Assembly (NCBI GenBank): GCA_001873285.1
Contig: MNYV01000013.1
Span: 1-9,115, forward strand
DNA: 9,115 bases
Origin: Nitrospirae bacterium CG2_30_53_67
Lineage (GTDB): Bacteria > CG2-30-53-67
Reading direction: 5' to 3'
The translations under genes and the position numbers were made by a program. Each line of letters starts with the position of its first letter. The stretch's first letter is position 1. This document shows positions 1,454 through 7,980 of this stretch, in pieces. The notes beneath the pieces were generated by a model that saw only the letters and a list, made by a program, of their open reading frames with translations, was not told the origin of the DNA and made no database searches.

Positions 1454-3199
1454 CTAATGGGTCTCCTTTCCGTGATAGATCTGAAATCCAGTGATCCCCC
1501 GGATGACCTCCGCGTAACGGGGATCGATGTTAATCAATTGGATCCGTTTCTTGTACCGTTTGATCATGCGTTTCCTGAAAAGGAGGATCTTGAACGCCAT
1601 CGGGGTGATCGCGCGGACCTCCTGAAAATTGATGATCACGGTCTTGGCCCCCTGCCGGATCGCCTGCCGGCTCTTGCTCCAGAGTTTGCGGGCGGAAACC
1701 TTGTCCAGCACGCCTTGCAGGTCCAACTGGAAGACCGGCTCGGTCCCGATCTTCCGGATCCGAATCCTGAGGAAGTCCATGATCTTTGCCGAGGTCTCCA
1801 CGGCGCCTTTGGCCGTGTGATCGAGAGCGGCCGTGATCTTCTCCTTAGAGTGGATGATCTCCGGAATCCTGTTGAAGATCTTCGAGAACCGGGGAACCTT
1901 CCCTTCCGGACTCCTTTCCACGATCCGCCGATAGCCGTAGTTCAGGGCGAGCCTGGGGAAGAGCCTCGGCTGAGGATGCAGGACACGCCTCGCGATGGAG
2001 CTTATTTTGTAGGTCTCGTGGAATGCCCAGAAGTATCCCTCCTGAAGCGTCTCCGGCGTCATGAGTTTGGGGTAAAAGACCGCGTTTCCGGAATTATACT
2101 TCCCCCAGTCATAATCGAATATCCTCCCCTGGTCCTGAAGCTTGTGAAACAGCTTGGTCCCCGGGAGCGGGGTCAGGATATGATAGGTGGGGAGGGCGAT
2201 CCGGTTCTTCTGCACAAAGCGGACCGTGCGCTCAAAAACCCCCTCATCGTCGGTATCGAACCCGAAGATGAACCCCGCGTTGATCATGATCCCGTGGTCA
2301 TGGATCTTCCTGATGGATTCTTCATATTCCGAGACCTTATTGATCTTTTTGTTTGCGGCCTTCAGGGTCTCGTCCGACAGGGACTCGATCCCCACGAACA
2401 TGGAGACGCACCCGCTCATCATAGCAAGTTTAAGGAGTTCATCATCCTTGGCCATGGTGAGCGACCCCTGGCTCCCCCACTTGATCTTGAGCGGGATCAG
2501 AGCGGTGAAGAGTTCCCTGGCATATTTCCGGTTGCCCACGATGTTGTCGTCCACAAAGGCCACGAACTTCGCATTGAACCTTTCCTTGAGCTGCCGCACC
2601 TCGGCCGCCACCTGTTCGACCGGACGGAAACGGTAGGTGTTCCCGAAGAATTCGGTTACGGAACAGAAATCGCAGGAAAACGGGCACCCCCGTGTGGTCT
2701 GAAGCGAGTTGGCGGTCATGTACCGGTCCCGTTTCAGAAGGCCCAGGCGCGGCATGGGGATTCGGCTCATATCAACGGGTTTTTCGGATTTGTAGATCCC
2801 TTTCATACGCCCGTGTTGAGCGTCCTCGATCACCTTGCCCCAGACATTTTCAGCCTCCCCCACCACCACGGCGTCCGCATGGGCTAGCGCCTCATCGGGC
2901 ATGAGCGAGGCATGGATTCCTCCCATGACCACGGGCACCCCTTTGGCCCGGTAGGTCTCCGCAATCTCATAGGCCCTTGGGATATAGGTGCTCATAGTCC
3001 CGATGCCTACGAGATCCACCGGCTCGTTCAGGTCCAGCGCCTCCACGGTCTCATCCGTGATCGAGACCTCGTGCTCCGGCGGCGTGAGGGCGGCGATGAT
3101 CGGGAGGCTGAGCCTGGGGAACCAGATGGCCCGGACTTCCTTTCCGGTATGCCGCATGTGTGAGCCTTTGAGGGCCGGGTCTATCAGCTTGATTTTCAT
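1454..3199 (-). CDS. B12-binding domain radical SAM protein with STAS-like C-terminal domain
   Basis: This is a 581-residue protein. Residues about 1-130 resemble a cobalamin-binding Rossmann domain (VVMGGIHASLMPDEAL at about 90-105). The usual DxHxxG cobalamin ligand motif is not evident. The radical SAM core follows, with the [4Fe-4S] cysteines in CPFSCDFC (Cys172, Cys176, Cys179). Related B12/radical SAM enzymes make methylations or rearrangements of unactivated carbons in lipids and natural products; the substrate here cannot be told. Residues about 485-575 look like a STAS domain: a beta strand, QGVLDKVSARKLW, a second strand VIINF, then a helix. The usual Asp-Ser phosphorylation motif is replaced by AITPMA. 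ATG at 3199 has AGGAGG at 3211-3216, 11 nt away. It is the first gene of a pair with the exported FG-GAP protein. Radical SAM call sure; STAS call moderate. Confidence 0.93.
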   Translation of the reverse strand: MKIKLIDPALKGSHMRHTGKEVRAIWFPRLSLPIIAALTPPEHEVSITDETVEALDLNEPVDLVGIGTMSTYIPRAYEIAETYRAKGVPVVMGGIHASLMPDEALAHADAVVVGEAENVWGKVIEDAQHGRMKGIYKSEKPVDMSRIPMPRLGLLKRDRYMTANSLQTTRGCPFSCDFCSVTEFFGNTYRFRPVEQVAAEVRQLKERFNAKFVAFVDDNIVGNRKYARELFTALIPLKIKWGSQGSLTMAKDDELLKLAMMSGCVSMFVGIESLSDETLKAANKKINKVSEYEESIRKIHDHGIMINAGFIFGFDTDDEGVFERTVRFVQKNRIALPTYHILTPLPGTKLFHKLQDQGRIFDYDWGKYNSGNAVFYPKLMTPETLQEGYFWAFHETYKISSIARRVLHPQPRLFPRLALNYGYRRIVERSPEGKVPRFSKIFNRIPEIIHSKEKITAALDHTAKGAVETSAKIMDFLRIRIRKIGTEPVFQLDLQGVLDKVSARKLWSKSRQAIRQGAKTVIINFQEVRAITPMAFKILLFRKRMIKRYKKRIQLINIDPRYAEVIRGITGFQIYHGKETH

Positions 3200-3728: not shown

Positions 3729-4013
3729 CTACAGGTTTGCCCGCTTAATGATCTTTTCGAGTTCTTTTCTGTTAATGATTCTCATAATGGTTATGGTATG
3801 GCTTTGCAACCTGTATAGAACCCTGTAATCTCCGGAACGAAGCCGGTAGAGAGGCGGTTTGAATCCTTTCAGTTTCTTAATTCCGGATCCTCCGGGCAAG
3901 GGGTTTATGGAAAGAGATTTTATCTCCGAGATGACCTGATCACGGAAAGCTTTTGGAATATCATTTAGGTCATCAATGGCTGCGCGGGCTAATTGGACAA
4001 TGAATTCATCCAT
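3729..4013 (-). CDS. RelE/ParE-superfamily toxin (probable mRNA interferase)
   Basis: The 94-residue protein has the RelE fold pattern. An N-terminal strand (MDEFIVQLARAA) is followed by two helices to about residue 36. Then come KLKG and PLYRLRSGDYRVLYRL at about residues 53-69, and a last strand with ITIMRIINRKELEKII. RelE toxins cleave mRNA in the ribosomal A site. ParE toxins of the same fold poison gyrase. The charged SGDYRVLY block fits either, with RelE favoured because the antitoxin is Phd/YefM-like. No Shine-Dalgarno is visible upstream of ATG at 4013: the preceding bases are GCCGCAAGATTA, supplied by an inserted repeat. In most such modules the toxin follows the antitoxin by a few bases, but here the gap is 243 bp, so expression may be reduced or altered. 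The gene is visibly more A/T-rich than its neighbours. Confidence 0.88.
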   Translation of the reverse strand: MDEFIVQLARAAIDDLNDIPKAFRDQVISEIKSLSINPLPGGSGIKKLKGFKPPLYRLRSGDYRVLYRLQSHTITIMRIINRKELEKIIKRANL

Positions 4014-4020
4014 TAATCTT

Positions 4021-4259
4021 GCGGCTTTGTAAAAAGTCCATCTGCAGGTTACGCTTTCCGCTCCGAACAGAGTTCAGAGCGCCGCGTGCCCCGCTTTGCA
4101 TTATCCATGCCGCCTACGGCGGCTTTAACATTAATGTATCTTGGGGTGCGCTGCGTCCTTCGTCATTGCAGCGTAGCTGTAAGTACGCCTCATTCCTCAG
4201 GACTTGCGCGCGGAGCTATAGGAGCTTTTTACTTTGCCGCCTCATTTGAGGACTTTTTA
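4021..4259. mobile_element. Inserted inverted-repeat element between antitoxin and toxin
   Basis: The spacer is bounded by inverted repeats. TAAAAAGTCC at 4030-4039 pairs exactly with GGACTTTTTA at 4250-4259, which contains the antitoxin's TAA stop. A longer imperfect pair joins 4021-4039 to 4221-4240 (GCGGC, three mismatches, GTAAAAAG, then CC). Inside lies a GCCGCC-TAC-GGCGGC hairpin at 4109-4123 and a core shared with 7450-7511. There is no convincing gene in it. It reads as a small non-autonomous element that separated two once-adjacent genes; no clear target duplication is seen. Confidence 0.55.
4047..4134 (-). repeat. Dispersed core repeat, copy A
   Basis: Read on the minus strand, the order is TTAATGTTAAA, the hairpin GCCGCC-GTA-GGCGGC, then an AAAGCGGGGCACG block and finally AAGCGTAACC. 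The same blocks in the same order occur at 7450-7511 (TTAGTGTAGTA, GCCGTC-GCA-GACGGC, AAAGCGGGACACG, GAAGCGTAACC). This copy carries about 25 extra bases between the last two blocks. Confidence 0.6.
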
Positions 4260-4502
4260 TGATAGGTAGTCATCCAGTGAAATAACTCTGCCGGCCTTTA
4301 TATCCGCTTCCGCTTTTGCTATCTTCTTTCGTATGGCCGGGCTGTTCTCAATGATAAAGTCTTCAAGATCGTCTTCAGTAAGCCGGGTAAGAGATGCCGC
4401 CGGTTTTCCTCTATAGGTGATGATCACAGGTTTTCCCTTCACCACCTCGCGCAACAGTTCATTCGTTTTGTTCTTTAATTCAACCGTATTGGCCACTCTC
4501 AT
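4257..4502 (-). CDS. Phd/YefM-family antitoxin
   Basis: The 81-residue protein has the Phd/YefM layout. The N-terminal DNA-binding half begins VANTVELKNKTNELLREVVKGKPVIITYRGKPAASL, and the acidic C-terminal half (DDLEDFIIENSPAIRKK... to SLDDYLS) would wrap the toxin. It should neutralise the downstream RelE-type toxin and, with it, repress the shared promoter. ATG at 4502 has GGAGG at 4511-4515, 8 nt upstream. A perfect sigma70 promoter and overlapping palindromes lie directly upstream, which fits autoregulation. The gene is intact; the sequence after its stop codon belongs to an inserted element that separates it from the toxin. Confidence 0.92.
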   Translation of the reverse strand: MRVANTVELKNKTNELLREVVKGKPVIITYRGKPAASLTRLTEDDLEDFIIENSPAIRKKIAKAEADIKAGRVISLDDYLS

Positions 4503-5956: not shown

Positions 5957-6307
5957 GGGGGCGATTGGTCTCGACGGGGGTGAGAAAGCCCCGGCTGCAT
6001 GCCGAGGTCCCGGTGGCTCGTTAAACAATCGGGAAAACACAACTGCCAACAACGAACTGGCACTGGCTGCTTAATTAAGCAACCCGTCCTCTTTCTCCTG
6101 CCTGTGGGGGGGAGTCAGGGCGCAATATTCACAGGATAGCCAAGCGGGGAGGGCTCCGGCCCCAAAGGCGAAACATCAGGAGATAGCGACGAGGCTAAGC
6201 CCGCCCTTGGGGCGTGCCTCCGGGCGAATCCCAAATCCAAGGGTAAGCATGTAGAGGTCGTGGCGGACCATTTCCGGACGCGGGTTCGATTCCCGCCGCC
6301 TCCACCA
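5957..6307 (+). ncRNA. ssrA: Transfer-messenger RNA (tmRNA)
   Basis: The 351-nt RNA has a tRNA-like domain. The 5' end GGGGGCG (5957-5963) pairs with CGCCTCC (6297-6303) as the seven-base acceptor stem with one G-U pair. Discriminator A6304 and an encoded CCA (6305-6307) follow. The T arm is CGGGTTCGATTCCCG near the 3' end. The message part begins after GGGAAAACACAACT and encodes ANNELALAA, then TAA at 6072-6074. The remaining sequence would form the usual pseudoknots. tmRNA, charged with alanine and bound to SmpB, frees ribosomes stalled on broken mRNA and tags the peptide for proteolysis. One-piece standard form, not permuted. Confidence 0.97.
6045..6074 (+). other. tmRNA tag-peptide reading frame, ANNELALAA
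   Basis: The codons are GCC AAC AAC GAA CTG GCA CTG GCT GCT TAA. GCC is taken as the resume codon because tags normally begin with Ala and because ACT-GCN is common at this point. The ending LALAA has the C-terminal AA that ClpXP and related proteases recognise. The resume codon could be a codon or two off. Confidence 0.85.
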
Positions 6308-6341
6308 ATTATTACTTGTTGCATTGCAACAAGTAATAATT
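6307..6341. terminator. 17-bp perfect palindrome closing ssrA, probable bidirectional terminator
   Basis: AATTATTACTTGTTGCA (6307-6323) is exactly complementary to 6325-6341 around a single central T. The left arm starts on the last base of the tmRNA CCA end, and the right arm ends 1 bp before the stop codon of the convergent gene at 6343. The position between convergent units argues for a shared terminator. The stem is A/T-rich and lacks a long T-tract, so termination strength is uncertain. Confidence 0.55.
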
Positions 6342-6342
6342 G

Positions 6343-7209
6343 CTACGCTGGTTTCAGGAAAATGCCGAGTTCAACCTGCTCGTCAGCCACATAGAGCGGA
6401 AACAAAAGTCCCATTCCTCCCTCGGGGATATGAACGCCTTTCCCTCTCACGTCAAGGACCTCAGGGGGGACAATGCCGATCGTTTTTCCCAACTGGACCG
6501 CCTTGGCCGCGATATTGCCGCAGACAATGTTCATGAACTCCATGACGGTGTCATCCAGCACTTCATCGGTTTCATTCGTCACGTCATCTTCCTTCAGAAT
6601 CGCCTTTGCAATCAGTTTCCTGACGCCTGATGAGACGGAAAGCAGGTACTGTGCCTTCACTTGCCCTGTCAAGTTCATGGAAACGATGGTATCATTGGGC
6701 TCCATCTTTTGAATGACCACACACTGCCCGGGCTTGAAGGTAAGATTCACAATGCGGGTAAACATCTTATAGGTCAGGTCTGCCGCCGCTTCCCATACCT
6801 TGGGATCCGGCACACCGTCAGGGATGGCCACTTTCTCGATCATGTAGGGCGCCTGATCAATTTTAAAAGCATCAAGATAACCCGGCAGATCATCCGCTTG
6901 AATGGCGCCCACTTTAACCAGCGCTTCTCCAATGTACAAGTGGGTGCTTTTCTGTTTTGCAAGGACCTCTTTGAGCTGATCCTCGGTCAGGATACCTAAC
7001 TTGATGGACATGTCGCCGAATCGCAGATCTTCGGACCGCTGCGCTTCATGGATGCGTTCAATGTCCGCATCGGTTAAGAGGCCCATAGAGCGAGCCATTT
7101 CGCCGAACTTGATGTTGACGAAATCCTGCAGTTCCACGGCTTTCAGCAGGTCTTCCCTTGAAACCACTCCCTTCTCCACCATAAACTGGCCGAAAAATTT
7201 AACCGCCAT
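6343..7209 (-). CDS. MshEN-like repeat protein with C-terminal CheX-type phosphatase domain
   Basis: The 288-residue soluble protein has two parts. Residues about 5-115 hold four related helical repeats of about 28 residues, each with (F/I)G, a hydrophobic G-(V/L/I) turn and a following helix, for example LGILTEDQLKEVLAKQ at 71-86. These look like the N-terminal domain of GspE/MshE ATPases, some of which bind cyclic di-GMP. Residues about 135-288 look like CheX/CheC-class phosphatases. The ExxN catalytic pattern is met by Glu224 and Asn227 in EFMNIVCGN, in the family's long helix. CheX removes phosphate from CheY-type receivers, and a CheY-like gene lies upstream on the same strand. ATG at 7209 has AGGGAG 7 nt upstream. 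Domain calls are by eye; the cyclic di-GMP idea is inference. Confidence 0.85.
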   Translation of the reverse strand: MAVKFFGQFMVEKGVVSREDLLKAVELQDFVNIKFGEMARSMGLLTDADIERIHEAQRSEDLRFGDMSIKLGILTEDQLKEVLAKQKSTHLYIGEALVKVGAIQADDLPGYLDAFKIDQAPYMIEKVAIPDGVPDPKVWEAAADLTYKMFTRIVNLTFKPGQCVVIQKMEPNDTIVSMNLTGQVKAQYLLSVSSGVRKLIAKAILKEDDVTNETDEVLDDTVMEFMNIVCGNIAAKAVQLGKTIGIVPPEVLDVRGKGVHIPEGGMGLLFPLYVADEQVELGIFLKPA

Positions 7210-7330
7210 GACGGATCTCCCTCATTTGAAAATAGTTTAAATAGGACAACTCTCGTACGGGCACATTTACCCCGGAAACCGTCTCGTCATCCCTGTAATT
7301 ATGGTTCTTCTCCCATTTAGTGGGTAAAAA

Positions 7331-7583
7331 GGGTTCGAGGATTCAAGGGTTCAAGGGGTCAAGTGAAATACTGATACCGGTAAACCGAGTACAAGAACGC
7401 AAGCAAAATCTCCAGAGAAAAACACTGGAACCCTTGATCCCAAGATGCCTTAGTGTAGTAGCCGTCGCAGACGGCAAGTATAGAGAAAAGCGGGACACGA
7501 GAAGCGTAACCCTATGACCCTCGGCCCCTTATGTTTTTAGCACTTCACTTGACCCCTGGAATCCTTGACCCCTTGACCCCTGA
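7331..7583. mobile_element. Inverted-repeat element in the gap between the two signalling genes
   Basis: Ends are imperfect inverted repeats of roughly 37-40 bp rich in GGTTCAAGG/GGGGTCAAG motifs. The best arm is AGGGGTCAAGTGAA at 7354-7367, exactly complementary to 7544-7557. A further internal arm, GAACCCTTGATCCC near 7428-7441, mirrors the left end. The interior holds the core repeat at 7450-7511. There is no credible gene in the 411-bp spacer 7210-7620. It looks like a MITE or nested REP-like element. Confidence 0.55.
7450..7511 (+). repeat. Dispersed core repeat, copy B
   Basis: The order is TTAGTGTAGTA, the hairpin GCCGTC-GCA-GACGGC (7461-7475), AAAGCGGGACACG and GAAGCGTAACC. It matches copy A at 4047-4134 block for block, in opposite orientation, but sits inside different flanking inverted repeats. 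Confidence 0.6.
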
Positions 7584-7620
7584 TGTTTTCACCTACTCTT
7601 TTGGAGATGATTCGTAATTA

Positions 7621-7980
7621 TTACACCTCACGGAGAATTCGCAGCACATCATCAGCTTCAAAGGGCTTGCATATAACGTTTCGGGCGCCGAGTTTCATGG
7701 CCTCGGTAAATTTGTCACTAACCCCGCCAAGCGAGGTCACCATGACGATTTTCGCATTCTGGTCAAAGGCGATCAGACTTCGTAATGCAGTCAACCCATC
7801 CATCGTGGGCATATTCATATCCATGCAAACAATGTCCGGATGTCCGGCCTGATACTTCATGATGGCCTCTGCGCCGTTCTTTGCCCGGTCCATCACCTCA
7901 AATTCACCCGTACTAACAATAATTTTTTCAAGCCGGCGGCTCACGGAGATGCTGTCATCCACGATCAGAATTTTCTTCAT
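7621..7980 (-). CDS. Single-domain CheY-like response regulator
   Basis: The 119-residue protein is a lone receiver domain with no output domain. The acidic pair Asp8-Asp9 (ILIVDD), the phospho-acceptor Asp54 (VCMDMNMPTMDG), Thr82 (MVTSL) and Lys105 (CKPF) are all present, so it should be phosphorylatable. Start choice: ATG at 7980 has AGGAGG about 9-10 nt upstream; a TTG six bases further upstream is too close to that Shine-Dalgarno. A sigma28-type promoter precedes it, and a CheX-type phosphatase gene follows on the same strand, so it is probably a motility or chemotaxis regulator. No kinase is in the window. Confidence 0.95.
   Translation of the reverse strand: MKKILIVDDSISVSRRLEKIIVSTGEFEVMDRAKNGAEAIMKYQAGHPDIVCMDMNMPTMDGLTALRSLIAFDQNAKIVMVTSLGGVSDKFTEAMKLGARNVICKPFEADDVLRILREV

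Follow-up and report, generated by a model that had tools for sequence, protein, structure and literature searches.

A window of 9,115 nucleotides (the whole stretch of DNA that was analyzed) encodes on its minus strand, at 6343..7209, a protein of 288 residues in which four tandem MshEN-type motifs precede a CheX-type phosphatase domain. The explanation we prefer, to which we assign a probability of roughly one half, is that the protein is a CheX-type phosphatase under regulation, encoded together with the CheY that is its substrate, the MshEN motifs of the phosphatase being a putative cyclic-dinucleotide input. The C-terminal CheX domain would dock on the phosphorylated product of the neighboring gene (P0002), where Glu224 and Asn227 would speed the loss of phosphate from Asp54. 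The four-motif N-terminal bundle would be the input domain. Its motifs 2 and 3 would most likely bind a cyclic dinucleotide that contains guanine, with c-di-GMP as the first candidate, and ligand binding would alter phosphatase activity, dimerisation or localisation.

Domain composition of the fusion protein

The CheX domain covers residues 134-288 (6343..6810, minus strand). Pfam's CheX profile (PF13690) scores 50.1 bits against a cut-off of 27 and matches 16 of 16 family members, and in the predicted model residues 134-286 superpose on Thermotoga maritima CheX (1squ) with Z = 18.5, at 2.0 A over 150 residues. A single ExxN occurs in the whole protein, E224/N227, within the signature D220xxxE224xxN227 (6529..6552, minus strand), which is of the D/SxxxExxN type and whose site is intact in all alignable CheY-linked homologs. 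The sequence-only reading had proposed a CheX-like domain with ExxN at Glu224 and Asn227, and had expected residues 135-288 to match CheX or CheC. The profile score, the superposition and the residues themselves bear this out. CheC carries two D/SxxxExxN motifs and CheX one; given that just one ExxN is present, a CheC identity was ruled out. The equivalog model for Thermotogales CheX (NF041094) gives 41.9 bits, below its 280-bit cut-off. The fusion protein is probably a CheX-type phosphatase that switches off the CheY of the neighboring gene.

The MshEN-type motifs are 24 residues each and start at residues 5, 34, 63 and 92, an exact period of 29 residues (24 plus a spacer of 5). They correspond to residues 5-28, 34-57, 63-86 and 92-115 (6865..7197, minus strand), and the MshEN study by Wang et al. 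describes the same layout of 24-residue motifs and 5-residue spacers (PMC5013675). The NCBIfam model of the MshE-related c-di-GMP motif (NF053729) gives the repeats 70.9 bits (E = 5.5e-20; cut-off 38) and is matched in 16 of 16 members of the first family alignment; phmmer matches the repeats to MshE (5htl) and to Thermus PilF (6f8l).

Modeled alone, residues 1-125 reach a pLDDT of 91.1, and the whole protein reaches 86.7 (AlphaFold2, 16 sequences). In the model of residues 1-125, residues 32-89 are predicted to adopt the MshEN_N four-helix fold, superposing on c-di-GMP-bound MshE (5htl) with Z = 11.4, at 1.4 A over 58 residues; the whole-protein model gives Z = 11.3 and 1.4 A for the same residues. 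This region is essentially the central motif pair 2+3 (residues 34-86; 6952..7110, minus strand), which also superposes on PilF GSPII-B. The best superpositions of the 1-125 model are c-di-GMP-bound chains, with Z of about 9-11.4, and the non-binding PilF GSPII-A gives Z = 4.8. No long structural match across all four motifs was found for residues 1-125, the central pair alone being matched, and this is not evidence of a new fold. Taken together, the spacing, the profile score and the superposition confirm the four GspE/MshE N-terminal-like repeats that had been noticed in the letters, and the MshEN structural match expected of them.

A chance match or a wrong frame was ruled out for the open reading frame (7209..6343), as homologs 51-71% identical exist elsewhere, the start is conserved and 124 distinct homologs are known. 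A GspE/PilB-type ATPase was likewise ruled out, the ATPase domain being absent from the 288 residues in profile search.

Pairing with a CheY-like receiver

The partner gene (7621..7980, minus strand) lies upstream of the fusion gene on the same strand and encodes P0002, a single-domain CheY-like receiver of 119 residues. The receiver profile PF00072 scores 81.9 bits, and D8, D9, D54 and K105 are intact, as they are in all 15 homologs compared. The CheY-like gene reported upstream from the letters alone is therefore a complete single-domain receiver.

A contig scan retrieved 15 full-length homologs of the fusion, 51-71% identical to it, whose records carry names such as Nitrospirae, Geobacteraceae and Desulfuromonadaceae. 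The receiver is directly upstream and on the same strand in 15 of these 15 loci, all examined at length. Given that the other neighbors vary from locus to locus, receiver and fusion behave as a stand-alone cassette. Co-occurrence with CheY genes, which the sequence-only reading had predicted for this architecture, was also found in a wider census: CheY adjoins the fusion gene in 129 of 139 related loci, drawn from partly overlapping collections, and the 10 loci without CheY comprise 4 at contig edges and 6 informative ones. The fusion protein is present in 118 of 277 genomes of the Geobacter argillaceus class.

MshEN-CheX proteins of full or nearly full length occur in about 14 of 386 broadly sampled genomes, the window's own not counted, and most of these belong to separate families. 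In 13 more distant loci, the receiver is adjacent on either side in nine and fused N-terminally in two (L210 and L211), and in the remaining two (L212 and L218) no receiver was found within the stretch inspected. In Lachnospira eligens, P0003 has a receiver fused at its C terminus. Its gene, on a plasmid (NC_012780.1; L090:6001-7305), encodes a single-chain MshEN-like/CheX/receiver protein annotated merely as "response regulator"; the plasmid collection yielded two distant matches only, both from this species. Since adjacency and fusion each occur in both orders, they constitute strong evidence that receiver and phosphatase work together.

Loss of CheY tends to accompany loss of the active site. 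When distinct proteins that could be scored for both traits are compared, four of six copies without CheY have a broken ExxN, against 0 of 112 with CheY (Fisher, 2e-6); L175 and L191, which have in-frame stops, are left unscored. The broken copies read E..K (L126), G..G (L129), N..D (L193) and N..D (L194), and three of them (L129, L193 and L194) are among the longest branches. On the tree there are about four CheY losses, three of which coincide with ExxN loss, and none in the opposite direction. With about three independent events, a phylogenetic sign test gives p = 0.25, and because these events are so few the co-loss is suggestive rather than proof. Fold, active site, adjacency, receiver fusions and co-loss all support the proposal that the phosphatase acts on the CheY encoded next to it.

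An alternative is that the phosphatase serves several CheY proteins of the cell and not chiefly the encoded neighbor. L130 and L173, the copies that keep ExxN although no CheY adjoins them, are in line with this, their genomes (G169 and G188) holding another copy beside CheY, as is the window's genome, in which the fusion is the only CheX found and accompanies two CheA dimerisation domains. We nevertheless regard it as improbable, given the 129 of 139 adjacent loci, the receiver fusions at either end and the decay of ExxN in most other CheY-less copies.

A dedicated pair has to be reconciled with a feature of the window itself. Receiver and fusion genes are 411 bp apart, compared with 19-141 bp at other loci, and the gap contains a dispersed MITE-like repeat. 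The repeat spans 7296-7611, with a core (7330..7581) bounded by 43-nt inverted-repeat arms at 7330-7372 and 7539-7581 that are 81% complementary. It has a strong RNA fold (z = -5.75) and occurs in dozens of copies in the window's genome. By separating the two genes it counts against a paired phosphatase in this genome, and it may uncouple their transcription.

Several further features of the window were observed. A tmRNA lies at 5957-6307 (tag ANNELALAA), and between it and the stop of the fusion gene, which converges on it, at 6309-6342, is a near-perfect AT-rich palindrome (AATTATTACTTGTTGCA/TTGCAACAAGTAATAATT) that looks like a terminator common to both. Genes for a ParE-type toxin and a Phd/YefM antitoxin (3729-4013 and 4257-4502) are on one strand with an unusually long gap of 243 bp, possibly another repeat insertion. 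At 1454-3199, a B12-binding radical SAM protein has a C-terminal STAS-like match under the Pfam cut-off, an unusual combination.

As regards cellular output, three PilT-type ATPases above cut-off but no FliM were found in the window's genome, which is 95% complete at 2.36 Mb. A flagellar output is therefore unlikely in this genome, and the output would be a type IV pilus or another system. In the Geobacter class, FliM is present in 106 of 118 cassette carriers versus 91 of 159 other genomes (Fisher, 1.6e-9, relatedness uncontrolled), and was not found in the other 12 carriers. A flagellar output as a general rule is weakened by these 12 carriers and by the window's genome.

Ligand of the MshEN-type motifs

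The sequence-only reading had raised the possibility that the repeats bind cyclic di-GMP. Part of what this requires is present: the fold, and the polar ligand contacts of MshEN, Gly3 and Gln24 (PMC5013675). Gln24 of motifs 1, 2 and 3 is kept in 124 of 124 homologs, and Gly3 is invariant across all four motifs in these homologs, apart from a single cell. Other positions depart from the motif. Motif 1 begins with Phe, the last residue of motif 4 is Phe where Gln is expected, and position 21 of motif 2 (residue 54; His54 codon at 7048..7050, minus strand) is His in 111 and Asn in 10 of 124 homologs, and Arg, Lys or Tyr in some distant relatives. It stands in place of Leu29 of VcMshEN, the Leu that stacks on guanine in MshEN (PMC5013675). 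When the relaxed c-di-GMP motif pattern of Wang et al. 2016 is applied, motif 3 alone passes (57 of 74), motifs 1, 2 and 4 never do, and no adjacent pair results. These departures, and the lack of a fully conforming motif pair, weigh against the ligand-gated phosphatase that we prefer.

Most homologs have Lys or Arg as the first residue of motifs 2 and 3, and Lys at this position confers high affinity in PilF GSPII-B, which still binds with sub-micromolar affinity after a single Gln24-to-Glu change (PMC11731258). GSPII-A of PilF, a known non-binder, has lost Gln24, and in the full-length domain a perfect consensus failed to restore binding (PMC12002112). Since GSPII-A does not bind, sequence likeness is insufficient as proof of binding. 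Nor can c-di-GMP binding be universal in these proteins: the REC-fused relatives L210 and L211 have lost Gly3 from motifs 2 and 3, yet keep ExxN and conserve motifs 1 and 4, a pattern hinting that the outer motifs may have a role of their own. The name MshEN-like is thus right and a role as putative c-di-GMP receptor plausible, and we put binding of c-di-GMP or a close relative by the window's protein at slightly under even odds. The window's genome has 13 GGDEF domains.

The alternative that best survives, although we consider it unlikely, is that the repeats bind no nucleotide and form a docking or dimerisation module that places a constitutive CheX phosphatase, for instance at the base of the type IV pilus or in a chemosensory cluster. 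The N domains of GspE and PilB bind partner proteins, and the model of residues 1-125 superposes on the PilZ-binding N domain of PilB with Z = 8.3. The motifs that vary least, even in L210 and L211, are 1 (FFG..Q) and 4 (YIG..F), and XpsE shows that c-di-GMP binding can be lost in such domains (PMC5013675). What such a module leaves unaccounted for is the strictness of Gln24 in motifs 1-3 of every homolog: this residue is known as a ligand contact, and the non-binder PilF GSPII-A has lost it.

It can also be speculated that cGAMP is a candidate ligand, because the central pair is asymmetric and cGAMP is important in Geobacter (PMC6456294). Motif 3 would then bind guanine as a canonical half-site, and the His/Asn-bearing motif 2 would read a different base of 3',3'-cGAMP or another nucleotide. 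The asymmetry is lasting (K..H/N..Q in motif 2 versus K/R..L/I..Q in motif 3), and the family is common in the Geobacter class, where cGAMP is a known messenger. A GGDEF domain of the window's genome (L050; G000:C76:18932-19405) has GHLVGS (GHLVGSQLL) in place of GHxxGD, with Ser at the position that marks Hypr, or cGAMP-making, cyclases in Geobacter (PMC6456294). This identity of the ligand is distinctly improbable, however, as cGAMP is a weak ligand of VcMshEN (KD of about 330 uM), guanine is favored at both sites by the backbone contacts of Gly3 (both from PMC5013675), and a single Hypr-like Ser is insufficient proof of cGAMP synthesis.

Returning to the ligand-gated phosphatase, its most far-reaching form is rather less likely than not: a cyclic dinucleotide on the central pair (c-di-GMP or, in view of the pocket's asymmetry, cGAMP) would directly gate the dephosphorylation of a dedicated CheY, in a cassette that has spread through many bacterial families as two genes or as a single chain. 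If this gating is real, the level of a second messenger would directly set the lifetime of phosphorylated CheY, and would exert this control in bacteria that cannot all have a flagellar output. The conserved replacement of the stacking Leu by His/Asn would provide a probe of the range of the MshEN binding code and of possible cGAMP selection.

Comparison with known systems

The MshEN-CheX architecture is not new, given that Wang et al. 2016, in a single clause, name the phosphatase CheX among the proteins with which MshEN is associated. The main text of that paper (PMC5013675) has the same domain pair without its gene context, a partner CheY, a binding-site analysis or a function. In the open literature searched, no description was found of the two-gene cassette, the receiver fusions, the conserved motif departure or the CheY/ExxN correlation.

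In comparison with the CheX proteins of Thermotoga maritima and Borrelia burgdorferi, the fusion has the same predicted fold (Z = 18.5 and 16.4), a single D/SxxxExxN site and a partner CheY, at about 20% identity. Whereas those are stand-alone domains of chemotaxis systems, the fusion adds a four-motif MshEN input domain, and its cassette has no other che neighbors in the loci examined.

With the MshEN domain of VcMshE and with Thermus PilF GSPII-B, the protein has in common the 24-residue motifs, the 5-residue spacers, the core of the four-helix bundle and the Gly3 and Gln24 contacts. It differs in having four motifs instead of two, without the alpha/beta MshEN_C subdomain and without an ATPase, and in its residues: Phe, Lys, Arg or Tyr at position 1, His/Asn at the stacking Leu of motif 2, and Phe for Gln in motif 4. 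The window's genome also encodes a stand-alone four-motif MshEN protein (G000:C142; L002:1471-1869) of 132 residues, directly 3' of a dxr-like gene, which scores 79.7 bits with the c-di-GMP motif model. Its motifs also end in Q-Q-Q-F, but it lacks a CheX domain and has the canonical Leu at position 21 of motif 2.

Cle proteins, which are CheY-like c-di-GMP receptors (PMC5677366), are likewise a point where c-di-GMP meets CheY-type output. In these, the receiver-like protein is itself the target of c-di-GMP, whereas in the fusion the putative receptor domain is on the phosphatase.
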